NCBI GenBank assembly: GCA_022510485.1
Contig: JAFLTI010000007.1
Location: 1-64,000 of the forward strand
Reading direction: 5' to 3'
Source of the DNA: Lentimicrobiaceae bacterium
Lineage (GTDB): Bacteria > Bacteroidota > Bacteroidia > Bacteroidales > P3
Length of the DNA stretch: 64,000 nucleotides
Shown: positions 33,224 to 42,356 of the stretch, piece after piece
Layout: every line of letters begins with the position of its first letter
How positions within the stretch are numbered: the stretch's first letter is position 1
Made by a program: the position numbers and the translations under genes
The notes under the pieces: model-generated
What the model saw: the letters and a program-made list of their open reading frames with translations, nothing else
What the model was told of the DNA's origin: nothing
The model's database searches: none

Positions 33224-35341
33224 GTGGGTAAAGACAAAAAACATACAGCGCCGTCAGACAAAAGAACGGGCTTTTCGAGAAAGGTGTATTTGGTATATGC
33301 CTTTTTGCTCGTTTTTGCCGTAGCGGTGGTTTTTCGTATGAGCAGGGTGATTTTTGTGGAAGGGCGCGGCTTGTTGGAGAAATCAGACAGGCAGAGCCTG
33401 CGTTATCAGAAGACCCCTGCCGTAAGGGGCAATATCTATTCGGCGGATAATTCTCTTCTGGCGGTGTCTGTGCCGTATTTTGACGTACGCTTGGATTTGC
33501 ATCCCGATGTGGTTTGCAACGATACCTTTAATCAGAATCTGCGCCCCTTGTGCGACAGCCTGCATAAGATGTATCCCGAAAGGAGCAGTGCCGGTTATCG
33601 TCAGATGTTGGAAAAGGCACGCAAGGAGCGCAAGCGCAATTTTCTCTTGCGTAGAAATGCAACCTATTCCGAAATGAGCCGTCTCCGTACTTTTCCCATT
33701 TTCAATAAAGGGCAGTATAAGGGTGGCTTTATAGTGGAAGAAAAAGAAAGACGGGTCCGTCCGCATGGCTTATTGGCAAGCCGTACCATAGGCTACTATA
33801 ATCAGGAATCCGCTACGGGAGTGGGTTTGGAACAGGCTTATCAGAAAGAGTTGTGCGGCATTGACGGAAGACGCTTGGAACAAAAGGTTTCTAACGGTGT
33901 GTGGCGGCCGGTGTATAACTCAGACGCGGTGCAGGCTGAAAATGGAAAGGATTTGTTTACCACCATCGACATACGTATACAAGACGTGGCGGAATCTGCC
34001 TTGAAGGATTGTATGGAGATAAACGAAGCTGAACACGGTTGCGTGGTATTGATGGAGGTAAAGACGGGCAAGGTGGTGTCTATCGCCAATCTACGCAAGG
34101 AAGAAAACGGTACGTATCACGAAAGCATGAATTATGCCGTAGGCGAGGCGGTGGAACCCGGCTCTACCTTTAAGTTGGCTTCTACCATAGCCATTTTAGA
34201 AGACAGTCATTGTTCACCCTCCATCATAGTGCCTACTGGAAAAATGCAGTTCTATAACAGATGGATGCGGGATTCGCACAAAGGAGGCTGGGGTAATGTA
34301 AGCCTGCAGGAAGCCTTTGAGAAATCGTCGAACGTGGGTATTTCTTATTTGGCAAACGAAGTGTTTCATAAAAAGCAGGCGCGCTTTGTGGAATATTTCA
34401 AGAAAATGCGTTTGCATAAACCTCTCGGAGTGGAGATTGCCGGGGAGGGAGTGCCGTATATCAAAGACCCTTCTGACAAAACTTGGTCGGGGGTTTCCCT
34501 GCCTTGGATGTCGATTGGCTACGAATTGAAGCTTACCCCCTTGCAGATTTTGACTTTGTACAATGCGGTGGCTAACGACGGCAAGATGATGAAGCCGCTT
34601 TTTGTGAATGAAATCCGCCAAGGGGATGAGGTGGTAAAGAAGTTTGAACCTCAGGTGTTGGTGGATAGGATTTGCAGTAAGGAAACCTTGGAAAAGGTAA
34701 AGACCATGCTGGAAGGGGTTGTGGAAAACGGAACGGCAACCAATCTGAAGAATGACCTGTATAAAGTGGCTGCCAAAACGGGAACAGCTCAGATAAACTA
34801 TGGCAAAAGGGGAAGCGAAAAGATGACCTATCGGGCTTCGGTTGCCGGTTATTTTCCTGCCGATAATCCTCGCTATTCGTGCATTGTGATGATTACCAAT
34901 CCGCAGAAGAACCGTATTTACGGCGGTGCGGTGGCAGGACCGGTATTTAAGGAGATTGCCGATAAAGTGTACGCTACCCTGATGAAGGGCGGTTTGCAAA
35001 CTGAAAGTTTGCCCCCGGCAGAAGCCGGCGCGCCGGCTTCTGCCGGGTACGCCGCCGATATATCTACGGTGTTTGCCCATATCGGCTTGCGCGACCCCAA
35101 ATTGGAGCCGACCTCGTTTGTTAAGCTGCGCGGCGGCGCAAACCGCCCCGGCGAGATTGTGCTGATGAAAGAGGTAATGCCCGATGTAAGGGGGCTTGGT
35201 TTGCGTGATGCTGTGTATCTGTTAGAAAAAAACGGACTCAAAGTGCAGGTAAGCGGCAAAGGAAAAGTAAAAAGGCAAGAGCCGGAGGCAGGTAGAACTT
35301 GTGCCAAAGGTCAGCAAGTTTTTTTGGAATTGGCAGGATAA
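33224..35341 (+). CDS. ftsI: division transpeptidase PBP3/FtsI with PASTA domain
   Basis: Encodes 705 residues, GTG start at 33224. One membrane segment (about 20-42), a dimerisation domain (RGNIYSADNSLLAVSV), and the transpeptidase domain with SxxK in EPGSTFKLAS, SxN in KSSNVGISY and KTG in AAKTGTAQINYG. A C-terminal PASTA domain follows (MPDVRGLGLRDAVYLLE). Cross-links septal peptidoglycan. Odd: between the two domains, nucleotides 35014-35047 form a perfect 34-bp palindrome encoding an Ala/Gly/Pro-rich patch (about residues 597-608). The stop is 1 bp before the murE start codon. Confidence 0.94.
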   Translation: MGKDKKHTAPSDKRTGFSRKVYLVYAFLLVFAVAVVFRMSRVIFVEGRGLLEKSDRQSLRYQKTPAVRGNIYSADNSLLAVSVPYFDVRLDLHPDVVCNDTFNQNLRPLCDSLHKMYPERSSAGYRQMLEKARKERKRNFLLRRNATYSEMSRLRTFPIFNKGQYKGGFIVEEKERRVRPHGLLASRTIGYYNQESATGVGLEQAYQKELCGIDGRRLEQKVSNGVWRPVYNSDAVQAENGKDLFTTIDIRIQDVAESALKDCMEINEAEHGCVVLMEVKTGKVVSIANLRKEENGTYHESMNYAVGEAVEPGSTFKLASTIAILEDSHCSPSIIVPTGKMQFYNRWMRDSHKGGWGNVSLQEAFEKSSNVGISYLANEVFHKKQARFVEYFKKMRLHKPLGVEIAGEGVPYIKDPSDKTWSGVSLPWMSIGYELKLTPLQILTLYNAVANDGKMMKPLFVNEIRQGDEVVKKFEPQVLVDRICSKETLEKVKTMLEGVVENGTATNLKNDLYKVAAKTGTAQINYGKRGSEKMTYRASVAGYFPADNPRYSCIVMITNPQKNRIYGGAVAGPVFKEIADKVYATLMKGGLQTESLPPAEAGAPASAGYAADISTVFAHIGLRDPKLEPTSFVKLRGGANRPGEIVLMKEVMPDVRGLGLRDAVYLLEKNGLKVQVSGKGKVKRQEPEAGRTCAKGQQVFLELAG
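35014..35047. repeat. perfect 34-bp GC-rich palindrome inside ftsI
   Basis: The 17-bp arm CCCGGCAGAAGCCGGCG (35014-35030) is followed without a gap by its exact reverse complement (35031-35047). 28 of 34 bases are G or C, far above the flanks. In frame it reads PAEAGAPASAG. It looks like a small palindromic element inserted into a permissive linker. Confidence 0.85.
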
Positions 35342-35342
35342 G

Positions 35343-36857
35343 ATGAAAAACGGAAATCCGACATTAGAGGCATTGCTTGCCGAATGTAAACCCGCTGTTG
35401 TGGGTTCTTGGCAAAGCACAGGAACATTGAACAAGGAGGTGCTTGGTCTGGCGCAGGATTCGCGTGCCGTTGCACCCGGTTTTGTGTTCTTTGCCATTAA
35501 AGGTACGGTGGTAGACGGACACGATTATATCGCCAAGGCTATTGAATCGGGAGCTGTGGCGGTGGTATGCGAAAGGCTGCCGGAGCAGGTTCAAGAAGAT
35601 ATTACCTATATCCGTGCAAGCGACAGCAGTATGCTTATGGGCTATATGGCTTCGGCTTTCTATGGGCATCCTTCGCAAGAACTGCAATTGGTAGGCATTA
35701 CCGGTACCAACGGAAAGACTACTACGGTAACGCTCCTATACCGCCTTTTCAGGCAGCTGGGCTATAAGACGGGGCTGCTTTCTACAATAGAAAACCGTAT
35801 CGACACCCAAGTGGTTGCCAGCACCCATACCACCGGCGATGCTTTGGAGCTCAACGCGCTTTTGCGCCGTATGGTAGACGAAGGCTGTGAGTATGCCTTT
35901 ATGGAAGTAAGTTCCCACGCGGTGGTGCAAAACCGTATAGCCGGCTTGCAGTTCAAGGGCGGCATCTTCAGCAATATCACGCGCGACCATTTAGATTACC
36001 ACAAGACTTTCGATGCCTATATCAAGGCAAAGAAATTGTTTTTTGACCGTTTGCCCGCTACGGCTTTTGCCTTGGTGAATACAGACGACCGCAACGGAGA
36101 GGTGATGTTGCAGAATACCGAGGCTCTTTGCCGCACGTATTCGCTGCGGTCGCCCGCCGATTTTAATGTAAAGGTGCTGGAAAATACCCTTGAGGGTTTA
36201 TTGTTGGAAATTGACGGAACCGAAGTGAATATGCGCTTGGTGGGTCGGTTCAACGCCTATAATCTTGCTGCCATTTATGCTTGTGCCATCTTGTTGGGTA
36301 TGGAAAAAAACGAGGTGTTGTGCGCTATGAGCCGCCTTACCGAAGCACCGGGGCGTTTTGAAACATTAAAGTCGACTGCCGGCAATAAATTGGGTATAGT
36401 AGACTACGCCCATACGCCCGATGCCTTGCAGAATGTGCTTTCTACCATCAACAGTATGCGTGATCATCTGCGTGAGGTAATCTGCGTGCTGGGTTGCGGC
36501 GGAAACCGCGATTCGGGCAAACGCCCCGTCATGGCGCAGATTGCCGCCGATTTGAGCGACCGCCTTATCATCACTACCGATAATCCTCGCTTTGAAGAGC
36601 CTCAAGCTATCATAGACCAGATGTTGACAGGGCTTTCGCCTACCCAACGAGCCAAAACGCTCTGCATAACCGACCGCAGGGAGGCTATCAGAACGGCTTG
36701 CGCCTTGGCAGGAGATGGCGATGTGGTTTTGGTGGCAGGCAAGGGTCACGAAAACTATCAGGAGATAAAAGGCGTAAAACACCATTTCGACGATAGGGAA
36801 GTATTGGCTGAATGTCTTCCTGCCGTATGGAATAATGCACCTAAAAGTGATGAATAA
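35343..36857 (+). CDS. murE: UDP-MurNAc-L-Ala-D-Glu:meso-DAP ligase
   Basis: 504 residues from the ATG at 35343, which directly follows the ftsI stop. Visible: [16 protein letters not shown] (UDP-binding), ATP loop [21 protein letters not shown], the TRDHLDYH motif, [14 protein letters not shown] and [11 protein letters not shown]. The last region corresponds to the DNPR-containing domain ([10 protein letters not shown]), the signature for meso-diaminopimelate specificity, which agrees with a complete dapF in this window. Confidence 0.95.
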
Positions 36858-36874: not shown

Positions 36875-38125
36875 ATGTTGTATTACCTATTTTCTTATTT
36901 ACACGAAGAATTTGGACTGCCGGGAGCGGGTGTGTTCAACTACATTTCGTTCCGTGCGGGATTCGCCATCGTGCTTTCGCTTATTATCATGATGATGGGC
37001 GGTAAGCGTATGATAGTTTATCTGCGCAAAAAACAGATAGGGGAAACCGTGCGCGAATTGGGCTTAGACGGTCAGAAAGAAAAAGAAGGTACTCCCACTA
37101 TGGGCGGTCTTATCATCATTGCCGCCATTCTCATTCCGGTACTGTTGCTCTGCCGGTTGGACAACATCTATGTTTTGCTTATGCTGTTCACCACCGTGTG
37201 GCTGGGTATTATGGGTTTTATGGACGACTATATCAAGGTGTTCAAGCATAACAAGCAGGGTCTTCAAGGAAAGTTCAAGGTGTTCGGGCAGGTAGGCTTG
37301 GGGCTTATCGTGGGTTTGGTAATGTGTTTTCATCCCGATGTGGTGGTATCTCAAAAAAACAATACCGCCTATGTAAAAACGCATAATGTGCTGAATGAAA
37401 CCGCCTACGATGAAGCTACGGCAGAATTTGAAAGCAATGTGGAGAAATCTATGGTTACCACCATTCCTTTTGTAAAGGGGCATGAACTCGACTACGAGGG
37501 CATTATGGAGTTCTTTCATACCGGCTGGGGCAAATACACGTGGATATTGTTCGTGCTGGTGGTGATATTGGTAATTACCGCCGTATCAAACGGCAGCAAC
37601 CTTACCGATGGCATCGACGGGCTTGCCACCGGTACTTCGGCTATTATCGGGGCTACTTTGGCTATCCTCTCTTGGGTTTCGGGCAATATTGTCTTTGCCG
37701 ACTACCTCAACATTATGTATATCCCCCACGTAGGAGAGCTTACCATATTTATCTCCGCCTTTGTGGGAGCCACCATCGGTTTTCTGTGGTACAACACCTA
37801 TCCGGCGCAAGTGTTTATGGGCGATACGGGCAGCCTTACCATAGGCGGCATCATTGCCGTATTTGCCCTGTTGATCCGTAAGGAACTGCTTTTGCCCATT
37901 CTTTGCGGAATATTCTTGGTAGAAAGCCTGTCGGTAATTATGCAGGTATCTTATTTCAAATACACTAAAAAACGTTGCGGGGAGGGAAAGCGCATCTTCA
38001 AGATGACGCCTATACACCACCACTATCAGGTAATCGGATACAAAGAGCCCAAAATCGTGATGCGGTTCTTCATTATCGGACTCCTCTTGGCGGTAGTAAC
38101 CTTGGTAACCTTAAAACTTAGATAA
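36875..38125 (+). CDS. mraY: phospho-MurNAc-pentapeptide translocase
   Basis: Encodes 416 residues with about ten membrane segments. Active-site motifs: [19 protein letters not shown] (two Asp), [13 protein letters not shown] and [11 protein letters not shown], plus MTPIHHHYQ near the end. Makes lipid I from UDP-MurNAc-pentapeptide and undecaprenyl phosphate. A periplasmic insert (about 155-205) typical of Bacteroidetes MraY is present. Ends 10 bp before the truncated murD. Confidence 0.95.
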
Positions 38126-38135
38126 ATACACAGAT

Positions 38136-38684
38136 ATGAAAATGAATATAGAAACATTGGCAAAACAAGGGTATGTTTCGGCTTCTATGGCAGAAACGGT
38201 AGCTGCTCATATTCAGAATTTGCGCAAGCGTACCATACAGGAAAGTTTCCGTGACTTCCGTCAGGCAGGTCATCGTATGGAATACGTGGCGCGTGTGCGG
38301 GGTGTGGAGTATATAGACGATGCCAAATCGTATAATGTAAACGCTACATGGTTCGCGCTCGAAAGCATGACCCGGCCGGTAGTTTGGATTGTGGGCGGAA
38401 AGACCAAAGATGTTGACTTTACCGCATTGCGTTCCTTGGTGGCTAAAAAAGTAAGCCGTATCATTTGCTTGGGTACGGATAACGCGCCTATCTTAAAAGC
38501 TTTTGGAGATTTGGTTCCCGATATTGTGGAAACCGACACTATGGTGAATGCCGTGCAGGCGGCTTATTTGATGGCCAACGAAGGGGAAGTGGTGTTGCTT
38601 TCGCCCTCCTGTCCCAGCTTCGATTTGTTTGAAAGCTATCAGGACAAGGGCACTCAGTTCAAGAAGGCTGTTTACGAATTGTAA
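38136..38684 (+). CDS. stand-alone MurD C-terminal (ligase) domain
   Basis: Encodes 182 residues, where MurD usually has about 440. It aligns, from my knowledge of MurD, only with the C-terminal domain: IQESFRDFRQAGHRMEYVARV, VEYIDDAKSYNVNATWFALE, WIVGGKTKDVDF, LLSPSCPSFDLFESY and QFKKAVYEL. The UDP-binding domain and the whole ATPase domain (GTNGKTT loop) are missing, and there is no room for them: mraY ends 10 bp upstream. Motifs are also altered: DSKATN reads DAKSYN, GGxDKGxD reads GGKTKDVD, SPxCASFD reads SPSCPSFD. It cannot act as MurD by itself. Either a full murD is elsewhere and this domain has a new role, or the gene is decaying; the intact frame favours retention. Confidence 0.85.
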   Translation: MKMNIETLAKQGYVSASMAETVAAHIQNLRKRTIQESFRDFRQAGHRMEYVARVRGVEYIDDAKSYNVNATWFALESMTRPVVWIVGGKTKDVDFTALRSLVAKKVSRIICLGTDNAPILKAFGDLVPDIVETDTMVNAVQAAYLMANEGEVVLLSPSCPSFDLFESYQDKGTQFKKAVYEL

Positions 38685-38696
38685 ACCTTGACAATC

Positions 38697-39860
38697 ATGT
38701 CGAACAAAGGTACGGGCATATTCAAATATTTGCGCGGAGACAAGGGTATCTGGACTATTATGATAATACTCTCCTGTATCTCCATTGCGGCGGTATATAG
38801 TTCTACCGGACGCTTGGCGTACCTTAAACAAGGGGGCGACACCACCTATTATATGTTCAAGCATTTGGGCATTTTAATGGTGGCGTGGGGTATCATGTAT
38901 CTGGTGCACCGTGTCAGATACACTTATTTTTCCCGCTTTTCGCTGCTTATGATATTGCCGGCATTGGGTTTGTTGGCAGTAACCCTTACTATGGCAACCG
39001 TAAACGACGCCGCCCGATGGATTAAGCTCGGACCTCTCTCGTTCCAGCCCTCTGAATTAGCCAAATTGGTGATATTAGTGTTTTTGGCGAGACAACTTAC
39101 CAAATACCAGCCGGTAATCAAAGAAAGACAGACCTTGTTGCGGCTTTTATGGGCTCCTTTGTTGGGAGCCGCGCTTATTTTCCCCGAGAACCTTTCCACT
39201 TCCTTATTGCTGTTGGTTTCCTGTTTTGTAATGATGATTGTGGGCGGTGTGGCGTTGCGTTATATTTGGAGCATGCTGGGAGCGGGCGTGCTGTTTGTGG
39301 GCTTGTTTGTTACCATATTGCTTGCTGTTCCGGCAGAGAACCTGCCCGGTCGCCTTCCCACATGGAAAGCCCGCGTGGAAAGATTTTTCGGTGGCGAAGG
39401 AGAAGAAGCCTATCAGGTTACCCAATCCAAGATAGCCATTGCCGGAGGGGGTGTATTCGGAAAGGGTCCCGGCAACAGCACGCAGCGCAACTTCTTACCT
39501 CACCCGTATTCCGATTACATTTATTCGTCGATTGTTGAAGAATACGGAATGCTTGCCGGCGTGGGCGTGATGCTGCTCTACCTTTGGTTTCTTATGCGCG
39601 GAATCCGTATTGCCAGAAGGTGCAAAGGTTCATTTGGCAGCTATATGGTATTGGGCATTACCTTTATGCTTACCTTGCAGGCGTTCATCAATATGGGGGT
39701 GGCGGTAGACCTGCTGCCTGTTACGGGGCAGCCTCTGCCGTTTTTGAGTATGGGCGGAACCTCACTGTTCTTTACCGCTTGCGGTATAGGGATTATTTTG
39801 AGCGTGAGCGCGGATGTGGAGCAAAAAGAAATGGAAGAAAAATCACAACAAGAAAAATAA
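38697..39860 (+). CDS. ftsW: septal peptidoglycan polymerase FtsW
   Basis: 387 residues from the ATG at 38697. SEDS-family membrane protein with about ten segments; SFQPSELAKLVILVFLARQL is the family signature, with GKGPGNSTQRNFLPHPYSDYI and VATGVAVDLLPVTGQPLPFLSMGG-like region later (INMGVAVDLLPVTGQPLPF). Polymerises glycan strands with FtsI. Twelve bp after the MurD-domain gene. Confidence 0.93.
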   Translation: MSNKGTGIFKYLRGDKGIWTIMIILSCISIAAVYSSTGRLAYLKQGGDTTYYMFKHLGILMVAWGIMYLVHRVRYTYFSRFSLLMILPALGLLAVTLTMATVNDAARWIKLGPLSFQPSELAKLVILVFLARQLTKYQPVIKERQTLLRLLWAPLLGAALIFPENLSTSLLLLVSCFVMMIVGGVALRYIWSMLGAGVLFVGLFVTILLAVPAENLPGRLPTWKARVERFFGGEGEEAYQVTQSKIAIAGGGVFGKGPGNSTQRNFLPHPYSDYIYSSIVEEYGMLAGVGVMLLYLWFLMRGIRIARRCKGSFGSYMVLGITFMLTLQAFINMGVAVDLLPVTGQPLPFLSMGGTSLFFTACGIGIILSVSADVEQKEMEEKSQQEK

Positions 39861-39866
39861 ACGGGA

Positions 39867-40964
39867 ATGCAGAAGAAAACGTTAAAGGTGATTATCAGCG
39901 GCGGTGGAACAGGAGGACATATTTTTCCAGCCATTGCCATAGCCAACGAGATAAAGCATCGCGAACCCGATGCCGACATTCTTTTTGTGGGTGCCGAAAA
40001 CCGTATGGAAATGGAAAAAGTTCCGGCGGAGGGTTATAAAATTGTAGGCTTGAATGTAATAGGTTTTGACCGTAAGCATTTTTTGAAAAACCTTTCGTTG
40101 CCGTTCAAGTTGATTAAAAGCTTGAGGCAGACACGCAAGATTATAGGCAATTTTGCGCCGGAAGTGGTGATAGGCGTAGGCGGTTATGCCAGTGCTCCTA
40201 CGCTGTATACAGCCCAAAGGCTTAAGATTCCCACCTTGATACAGGAACAAAATTCGCTTCCGGGAATGACCAACCGTATTTTGAGTAAAAGGGCAAACTG
40301 CATTTGTGTGGGCTACCATGATATGGAGAGGTTCTTTCCGCGCGAAAAAATCGTTTGGACAGGTAATCCCATACGGCAGGATATTTCAAATATCAATGCC
40401 AAGAGAGAAGAAGCCTATACATTCTATAACCTCAAAAAAGATATGCCCACGCTTTTGGTTATGGGCGGAAGCTTAGGAGCGCGCACGATCAACGAGGGTA
40501 TGAAAGAAAATATAGACTATCTGCTCAACAAAGGTTTCCAAGTGGTTTGGCAGACGGGAAAATATTACTACCAGCGTATGTTGCCCTATGCCGAGGGTAA
40601 GGAAAACCTTGTGCTGCTCGATTTCGTGCGCAGGGTGGATTTAGCGTATGCGGCAGCCGATATTATCGTTTCGCGTGCCGGAGCCATTACCATTTCGGAG
40701 CTTTGTGTGGTAGGAAAACCCTTGATTCTGATTCCTTCGCCCAATGTGGCTGAAGATCACCAGACCCGCAATGCGGAGGCTTTGAGTTCCCGCAATGCCG
40801 CCATTCTGCTGCACGATGACCGCACGGTAGAAGATTTGGGCAAGGCAGTAGACGAACTTTGGCAGAATGAACGCCGCAGGGAACTGCTTGCGCAGAACAT
40901 TTCGCGCATGGGTACCACCTCGGCAGCCAAGATGATTGTAGACGAAGTGATGAAATTGATATAA
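39867..40964 (+). CDS. murG: UDP-GlcNAc transferase MurG
   Basis: Encodes 365 residues. SGGGTGGHIFPAIAIANE (glycine loop), GVGGYASAPTL, QEQNSLPGMTNRIL, VMGGSLGARTIN and SRAGAITISEL are MurG motifs. It converts lipid I to lipid II at the inner face of the membrane. Six bp after ftsW, 3 bp before murC. Confidence 0.95.
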   Translation: MQKKTLKVIISGGGTGGHIFPAIAIANEIKHREPDADILFVGAENRMEMEKVPAEGYKIVGLNVIGFDRKHFLKNLSLPFKLIKSLRQTRKIIGNFAPEVVIGVGGYASAPTLYTAQRLKIPTLIQEQNSLPGMTNRILSKRANCICVGYHDMERFFPREKIVWTGNPIRQDISNINAKREEAYTFYNLKKDMPTLLVMGGSLGARTINEGMKENIDYLLNKGFQVVWQTGKYYYQRMLPYAEGKENLVLLDFVRRVDLAYAAADIIVSRAGAITISELCVVGKPLILIPSPNVAEDHQTRNAEALSSRNAAILLHDDRTVEDLGKAVDELWQNERRRELLAQNISRMGTTSAAKMIVDEVMKLI

Positions 40965-40967
40965 GAC

Positions 40968-42356
40968 GTGGATAGGCTTACCATAACATATCCGTATTTT
41001 TTGGGAATAGGCGGCATCGGAATGAGTGCCTTGGCTTGCCATTACCTGCACGCAGGTTGTAAGGTGGCAGGCTACGACCGCATTTCAACGCCGCTTACCC
41101 GAAAATTGGAAGCTATGGGAGCGGAAATCCATTATACCGAATCGCCCGGATTGATTCCTGCCGGCATTGATGCAGTGGTTTATACTCCGGCTGTACCGTC
41201 TACCCACGCCGAATGGGCAGAAATAAAACGGCGGGAACTGCCGGTTTACAAACGGGCGCAGGTGTTGGGAATGTTGAGCCGTCAATACAAAACCTTGGCA
41301 GTGGCAGGCACGCATGGAAAAACCACCACTTCGGCTCTACTGGCATATCTGCTGCACGGCAGCATAGGCTGCAAAGCCATTTTGGGAGGTATTGTTCCCG
41401 ATTTGGGCGGCAACTATCTGCACGATGAAAAAAGCTCCTATCTTGTAACGGAAGCCGATGAATACGACCGTTCATTCCTACAGTTGCATCCATGGTTTTC
41501 GGCGGTTACGGCATGGGATGCCGACCATCTTGATATTTACGGCAATGTAGAGTCCATGCGTGAGGCATACCTGCAATTTATGCGGCAGTCGGAGCATTTT
41601 ATAGCCGAGTGCTCGTTGCAGCTGCCTTTGCAGCCCGACTATGTTTACGGCATACAGAACCAAGCGCACGCAGATTGCGGTACAAAGGCGGCTTTTGCCT
41701 ACAACCTGCAAGTAAAAGATTGTTGTTACAACTTTGATTATTCGGGTCCGAAAGCCGTTATCGAAAATTTGAACCTGTCTTGTCCGGGCAGGCATAATAT
41801 CCAAAATGCGGTGGCGGCAGTAAGCCTTGCCTTGGAAGCCGGAGTGGAACCGCAGGAAATACGCAGGCTTTTGCCCCTTTTCAGGGGAGTTTGCCGCAGG
41901 CTGGAACGCTGCTTTTCGCAGCCGGGATTAGCGTATTACGACGATTATGCCCATCATCCGGCAGAAATAACGGCAAGTTTCAATGCCTTGCGGGAATTTT
42001 ATCCCGATTACCGCCTTGCGGTAATGTTCCAGCCGCATCTGTATTCGCGCACACGCGACTTGGCGCAAGATTTTGCCTTGAGCCTGAGCCAAGCCGATGA
42101 ACTTTGCCTGATAGATATTTATCCGGCACGCGAAGAACCGATTGCAGGTGTTGATACGCGCCTGATAGGCGAAAAAATAACGAACATTCCGGTGCGTTAT
42201 GCCAACAGGAAAAACGCCCTGTTGCAGGTAGAACGTTATCTGGAAGAACAAAAAAAGAAGCAAGAAAAACTGTTGCTCATTACCATGGGTGCCGGCGACA
42301 TAGATACTTTGGTTGAACCCATAGTAGGCTGTTTGCAGAAAGGAGGGGCGGTATGA
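40968..42356 (+). CDS. murC: UDP-MurNAc:L-alanine ligase
   Basis: Encodes 462 residues, GTG start. FLGIGGIGMSALACHYL, ATP loop VAGTHGKTTTSALLA, EADEYDRSFLQL, AWDADHLDIYG and YDDYAHHPAEI are MurC signatures, all three domains present. Adds L-Ala to UDP-MurNAc. Its last 4 bp overlap the ftsQ start. The cluster therefore contains complete MurC and MurE but an incomplete MurD. Confidence 0.95.
   Translation: MDRLTITYPYFLGIGGIGMSALACHYLHAGCKVAGYDRISTPLTRKLEAMGAEIHYTESPGLIPAGIDAVVYTPAVPSTHAEWAEIKRRELPVYKRAQVLGMLSRQYKTLAVAGTHGKTTTSALLAYLLHGSIGCKAILGGIVPDLGGNYLHDEKSSYLVTEADEYDRSFLQLHPWFSAVTAWDADHLDIYGNVESMREAYLQFMRQSEHFIAECSLQLPLQPDYVYGIQNQAHADCGTKAAFAYNLQVKDCCYNFDYSGPKAVIENLNLSCPGRHNIQNAVAAVSLALEAGVEPQEIRRLLPLFRGVCRRLERCFSQPGLAYYDDYAHHPAEITASFNALREFYPDYRLAVMFQPHLYSRTRDLAQDFALSLSQADELCLIDIYPAREEPIAGVDTRLIGEKITNIPVRYANRKNALLQVERYLEEQKKKQEKLLLITMGAGDIDTLVEPIVGCLQKGGAV

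Follow-up and report, generated by a model that had tools for sequence, protein, structure and literature searches.

Why is the murD position of a dcw operon occupied by an intact gene for only the C-terminal part of MurD? Mur ligases are essential enzymes and antibiotic targets and have been studied mainly as catalysts. In the window, i.e. the whole stretch of 64,000 nucleotides that was analysed, this position between mraY and ftsW holds a short protein, referred to here as MurDc. The relevant features are located as follows.

35301..36857, plus strand: murE, part of the same dcw operon
36875..38125, plus strand: mraY, the upstream neighbour, with a 10-bp gap to the ATG of MurDc
38136..38684, plus strand: MurDc, a stand-alone C-terminal MurD protein with intact relatives in 12 genera and dN/dS of 0.01-0.14
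38136..38138, plus strand: ATG start of MurDc, two codons before the conserved internal Met; MurDc orthologues begin here too
38136..38267, plus strand: what is left of the central domain, namely its end (about E. coli residues 256-299); the HN/N271 ATP motif is gone
38319..38336, plus strand: DAKSYN, residues 62-67, the counterpart of DSKATN (D317-N322)
38601..38624, plus strand: SPSCPSFD, residues 156-163, the counterpart of SPACASFD in the Glu-binding loop
38688..39860, plus strand: ftsW, the downstream neighbour (TTG at 38688; the ATG at 38697 is the likelier start)
39867..40964, plus strand: murG, part of the same dcw operon
40968..42356, plus strand: murC, part of the same dcw operon

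The MurDc frame is open, starts with ATG and encodes 182 amino acids followed by a stop codon, directly after which ftsW begins (a gap of 3 to 12 bp, depending on the ftsW start). An earlier note on this DNA had described a 182-residue C-terminal MurD frame in the murD slot, and the profile search bears this out: the match to the murD model TIGR01087 is limited to positions 268-439 of 441 (E 2.4e-47), the last ~40% of the model, and its 162 bits stay below the curated cut-off of 211.95 bits for a MurD equivalog. The Pfam domain Mur_ligase_C (PF02875) is recognised with 47.7 bits against a cut-off of 28.4. The description as the C-terminal domain only was right about the C-terminal part but incomplete, as MurDc consists of MurD domain 3 preceded by some 45 residues that formed the end of the central domain (from about E. 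coli residue 256). The UDP-binding and ATPase domains are missing, as had been noted before, and the P-loop K115, E157, H183 and K198 region by which a MurD ligase is recognised is absent. Both motif changes seen previously, DAKSYN for DSKATN and SPSCPSFD for SPACASFD, were found again. The best Foldseek matches of MurDc were MurD structures, with a low-confidence model as the query; this AlphaFold2 model had a mean pLDDT of 56.6 and a better core at residues 65-160, and was poor because it was built from only four sequences.

The roles of the MurD residues considered here are those that we take from established MurD structures. In the window copy the adenine/ATP motif H267/N268/N271 is lost, and the set of ATP and glutamate ligands (N268, N271, R302, D317, K319, T321, K348, S415) is incomplete, with N268, N271 and T321 lost and R302, D317, K319, K348 and S415 retained. 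Among all MurDc copies, H267, N268 and N271 are lost in most, and K319, T321, K348 and the S415 loop in many genera; distant genera have lost most ATP and glutamate ligands of the retained part of MurD, and also the SPxCASFD-type Glu-binding loop (SPSCPSFD in the window). Because of these losses in the ATP motif and at K319, T321, K348 and the S415 loop, MurDc, judged by its residues, cannot be a ligase by itself. K319 and K348 of MurD are also treated in PMC8788868.

MurDc was found in the mraY-ftsW slot in all 12 sampled genera of the window's family, and a full-length dcw murD in none of them. The short frame is present in all 13 genomes of the window's genus, in four of genus g7 and in members of g8 and g10, and where the slot was read, the MurDc of other genera is 28-39% identical to the window copy. 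Protein lengths are mostly 174-186 aa (range 161-200; one copy is cut by a contig end), and all frames in the family are open, the stops inside a few matches being located upstream of the start. Such a recurrence of the same ORF in the same slot is far beyond chance. Pairwise dN/dS values of MurDc (0.01-0.14) are comparable to those of mraY and murG, and most are lower than those of ftsQ and murC. We are nearly certain that MurDc is a conserved, functional non-ligase protein. The survey of dcw clusters in relatives and the measurement of selection had both been proposed in the earlier note; neither brought up what the note had named as counter-evidence, a full-length dcw murD in the family or a decayed frame in a sister strain.

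At first sight, finding a truncated gene in the place of murD would suggest a decaying pseudogene or an assembly deletion, but the ORF is open in ~80 separate assemblies from about 20 families and under strong purifying selection, which leaves this reading with a negligible chance. The earlier argument against a frameshift also holds, as mraY indeed ends at 38125, 10 bp before MurDc, and the ORF recurs intact in many assemblies. A frameshift or assembly deletion was rejected on this recurrence, and a pseudogene on the dN/dS values. The stretch might also be kept for the operon rather than for a protein, either for translational coupling of mraY and ftsW or as regulatory DNA or RNA, and the tight packing in the window, with gaps of 10 bp and 3 to 12 bp, would suit this. 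However, the flanking gaps vary widely among relatives, no excess of a promoter motif occurs at the Met, and the frames remain open at ~30% protein identity with dN/dS of 0.01-0.14, so that selection largely refutes an operon element and makes it highly improbable. One of the loci read (L061, JAMPAI010000001.1) is titled Ruminococcus flavefaciens and contains a Bacteroidales-type dcw cluster with a MurDc 88% identical to that of the window; the title is probably wrong.

For an organism that still needs MurD, the earlier note had offered two solutions, a full copy elsewhere with the short domain kept for a new job, or two separate proteins sharing the MurD reaction. The genome of the window (1.96 Mb, 96.5% complete) was searched for a complete murD as the note had proposed, and one was found as the C-terminal half of a 946-aa protein on contig C20 (13934-16800; L001 1489-4329, minus strand), the N-terminal half of which is MurL-type (E 1.3e-72; ligase half MurD, E 5.5e-81). 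The MurL half reaches 244.7 bits over positions 66-398 of 447 of NF041275, below the 700-bit cut-off of what is an equivalog model for Xanthomonadales; by sequence it is a clear MurL relative. The ligase half carries the MurD2 residues, E182 and R348 in E. coli numbering, which are also found in most MurD2 copies of the family that were read. The L-Glu specificity determinants of X. oryzae MurD2 are E197 and R358 (PMC8788868). Nearly every catalytic residue checked is retained in the C20 ligase, with Ile in place of K319, and it has its own C-domain. MurI was not found in this genome (TIGR00067 profile, E 0.001) or in any of 121 family genomes (cut-off 1e-10), 112 of which have MurL. By homology and diagnostic residues, the genome is thus assigned a predicted MurL/MurD2 (L-Glu) pathway. 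In Xanthomonas, MurD2 and MurL are an L-Glu ligase and an ATP-dependent epimerase, and their distribution is given as Proteobacteria, Actinobacteria and low-similarity relatives, with Bacteroidales unmentioned in the available portions of PMC8788868 and PMC5808125.

The first solution is supported by the MurL-fused MurD on C20 and the purifying selection on MurDc, whereas the second is left unsupported, the C20 ligase being complete with its C-domain; a split ligase in which the C20 protein lacks this domain was rejected for the same reason. Across the family, MurL and MurD2 are fused in many genera and separate in g2, g6, g7, g8, g9 and g10, and fission or fusion has therefore recurred. In one genome a MurD-like piece without the N-terminal domain (L059, G055:C7:2363-3223; model positions 140-439) lies at a contig end; the same genome also has a MurL-MurD2 fusion and MurDc.

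The distribution was then read from 393 Bacteroidales genomes, largely fragmented assemblies of this order alone. MurDc occupies the mraY-ftsW slot in at least 48 of them, from about 20 families; MurL relatives occur in 123 and MurI in 252. Six genomes appear in both lists, with weak MurI matches (E 1e-11 to 1e-22). MurL and MurI are thus nearly mutually exclusive in the sample, which suggests, at the level of gene content, a widespread D-Glu-free route in Bacteroidales. The 123 genomes with MurL comprise 48 with MurDc only (in G026, G191 and G451 judged from the short frame alone, not from the adjacent genes), 70 with full-length MurD or contig-edge pieces, and five without a dcw MurD piece, possibly owing to assembly gaps. 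By comparison, MurDc alone was found in none of 156 frame-checked genomes without MurL, i.e. 79 from the first frame list and 77 of 80 further MurI-positive controls, each of which has a single long MurD frame; among the three remaining controls, two gave no hit and one had MurD in two pieces on two contigs, the N-terminal part included. The association of MurDc-only genomes with MurL gave a Fisher p of 0.0003 for the first frame list alone, calculated on related genomes that are not independent samples. Unusually long MurD frames of 865 and 659 aa were seen in G155:C61:11814-13133 and G194:C42:79720-81039, respectively, and are possible fusions.

In most of the ~70 MurL-positive genomes, a full-length D-Glu-type MurD stands beside MurD2 without a convincing MurI. 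Catalytic decay of this dcw MurD ahead of truncation was looked for and not found: in the 40 MurL-positive genomes read (L094-L133) it is full-length with its catalytic residues kept, and therefore not simply dead weight before truncation.

The main rival explanation starts from this distribution. MurDc might be a dedicated partner of MurD2/MurL in trans that binds, activates, stabilises or feeds the ligase or the epimerase, given that every MurDc-only genome of the order sample has MurL and that the domain derives from a homologous ligase. However, the same co-occurrence would arise just as well if MurD2 had simply taken the ligase duty over from murD; moreover, MurD2 is complete in its catalytic residues and C-domain, and ~70 MurL-positive genomes have no separate MurDc gene but a full-length dcw MurD or contig-edge pieces. 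We consider such a partner role unlikely, though it deserves more weight than the other alternatives, and prefer the reading that MurDc was set free from a murD that had lost its ligase duty.

The best tree of 106 C-domains requires at least 11 changes between the full and the short state, at least three of them forced by strongly supported branches, and truncation has therefore recurred, although its exact count is unsure because several MurDc sequences form long branches. Since a short gene cannot regrow, repeated loss is the simplest account of these changes. The full and the short form group as sisters in the families f120 and f50 (97% support), and in f117, f6 and f13 they lie close together in the tree. 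The start of the MurDc frames coincides with the counterpart of one Met, in the context M-(T/S/N)-(I/L)-E-x-LALQG, or lies only a few codons from it, with extra upstream codons or a shifted start in a few copies. Of 60 full-length MurDs of Bacteroidales, 97% have this Met, whereas E. coli has Leu there. We hold it to be highly likely that the dcw murD was truncated recurrently after a takeover by MurD2/MurL.

A further question is whether the Met already serves as a start within the full-length gene. Translation starts of Bacteroidota are tuned by upstream A and low mRNA structure (PMC6847099). Full-length murD genes were scanned from end to end for an excess of synonymous codons ending in A, with amino acid and gene corrected for. 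In 40 MurL-positive murD genes this excess had its gene-wide maximum just before and after the internal Met, while in 53 MurI-positive genes the true start was highest and the Met region was raised more weakly. The codon percentile of the Met region within its own gene averaged 0.96 in MurL-positive versus 0.76 in MurI-positive genes, and it was at or above the 95th percentile in 27 of 37 MurL-positive genes. In windows of 39 bases, the mean folding energy of MurL-positive murD was weakest just upstream of and at the Met, so that codons and structure there resemble those of a Bacteroidota start codon. No such signal was found at the homologous site of MurD2 of the same family. The promoter motif TAnnTTTG was not enriched at the internal Met, and an internal promoter in place of an internal start was rejected on this ground. 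The N-terminal two-thirds are less conserved relative to the C-terminal part in MurL-positive than in MurI-positive murD (identity difference 0.102 versus 0.052).

These statistical signals on related genes make it probable that the full-length murD of MurL-positive genomes contains an internal start. That Bacteroidales murD in general is a two-product gene, encoding the ligase and an internally started C-terminal protein that would have a separate and perhaps essential part in wall synthesis, is a reasonable conjecture to which we give slightly less than even odds; literature searches for a C-terminal isoform or pseudoenzyme of MurD found none among the papers listed. If true, the replacement by MurD2-MurL would expose the inner frame, and the gene would shrink to it again and again.

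More than 90% of MurDc copies keep D317, N324, W327, W341, I342, V363, G370, A393, V394, S410, P411 and F429 (letters are those of E. coli or of the Bacteroidales consensus), and Trp 327 and Trp 341 are present in Bacteroidales proteins but absent from E. coli MurD. D317 is kept in 97%, K319 and T321 in 46% each, and DSKATN is intact in MurDc of genus g7 and several other families. The kept D317 and the intact DSKATN would fit a small-molecule sensor, in which the old pocket binds glutamate, a UDP-MurNAc peptide or a nucleotide and signals precursor supply to MraY, MurG or FtsW. We regard such a sensor as rather improbable, since many genera lack K319, T321, K348 and the S415 loop although the protein stays conserved.

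We propose instead that MurDc is a non-ligase protein derived from the C-terminal third of MurD and kept for a second function of this domain. The first two steps of this explanation we regard as documented: the genome has a MurL-MurD2-type fusion with MurI not found, and alongside MurL-MurD2 the dcw murD was repeatedly cut to an ORF that begins at the conserved Met or a few codons from it, and that strong purifying selection has preserved between mraY and ftsW. In the third step, for which the codon and mRNA-structure signals speak, full-length murD would already have made MurDc from the internal start, and the deletion of the 5' two-thirds would have removed just the redundant ligase part. 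We assign these three steps together a probability of about 0.65. The fourth and least certain step is that MurDc may act as a docking or regulatory subunit of a cytoplasmic complex around MraY, MurG and FtsW. In the loci that were read, its gene keeps its place next to mraY and ftsW, and a contact role is suggested because the ATP and glutamate ligands are lost while the fold core and several Bacteroidales-specific residues are kept; we put it forward tentatively. Binding of MurD and other Mur ligases by MurG and MreB has been reported (PMC6420597, PMC4929429), which makes it plausible that a domain of MurD could serve in binding.

Independently of this contact role, the C-terminal domain of MurD very probably has a second job, because the same last third is repeatedly retained and strictly conserved in many gut-type Bacteroidales in which the substitute enzyme pair serves cell-wall synthesis. 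The order thus offers a natural experiment that has recurred: another enzyme takes over as ligase, yet the same piece of murD is nearly always kept. Through MurDc, it can be tested directly what keeps the cytoplasmic Mur complex together. Furthermore, a D-Glu-free route by MurL/MurD2, often fused, is indicated in roughly one in three of the Bacteroidales genomes sampled, and its prevalence matters for predicting the sensitivity to inhibitors of MurI and MurD.

MurDc shares with MurD, by homology, the C-terminal domain and the final part of the central domain, and it has the same dcw position between mraY and ftsW, but is devoid of the UDP-binding and ATPase domains, and the ATP ligands and, in many genera, the glutamate ligands are gone. 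In the Mur complexes scaffolded by MurG and MreB, as far as the available text of PMC6420597 and PMC4929429 describes them, a free MurD domain does not appear. With the MurD2/MurL pathway of Xanthomonas (PMC8788868, PMC5808125, as represented in their available portions), the genome analysed here shares the predicted enzyme pair and the diagnostic residues of MurD2, with MurI not found; unlike in that pathway, MurL and MurD2 are here fused in one protein.
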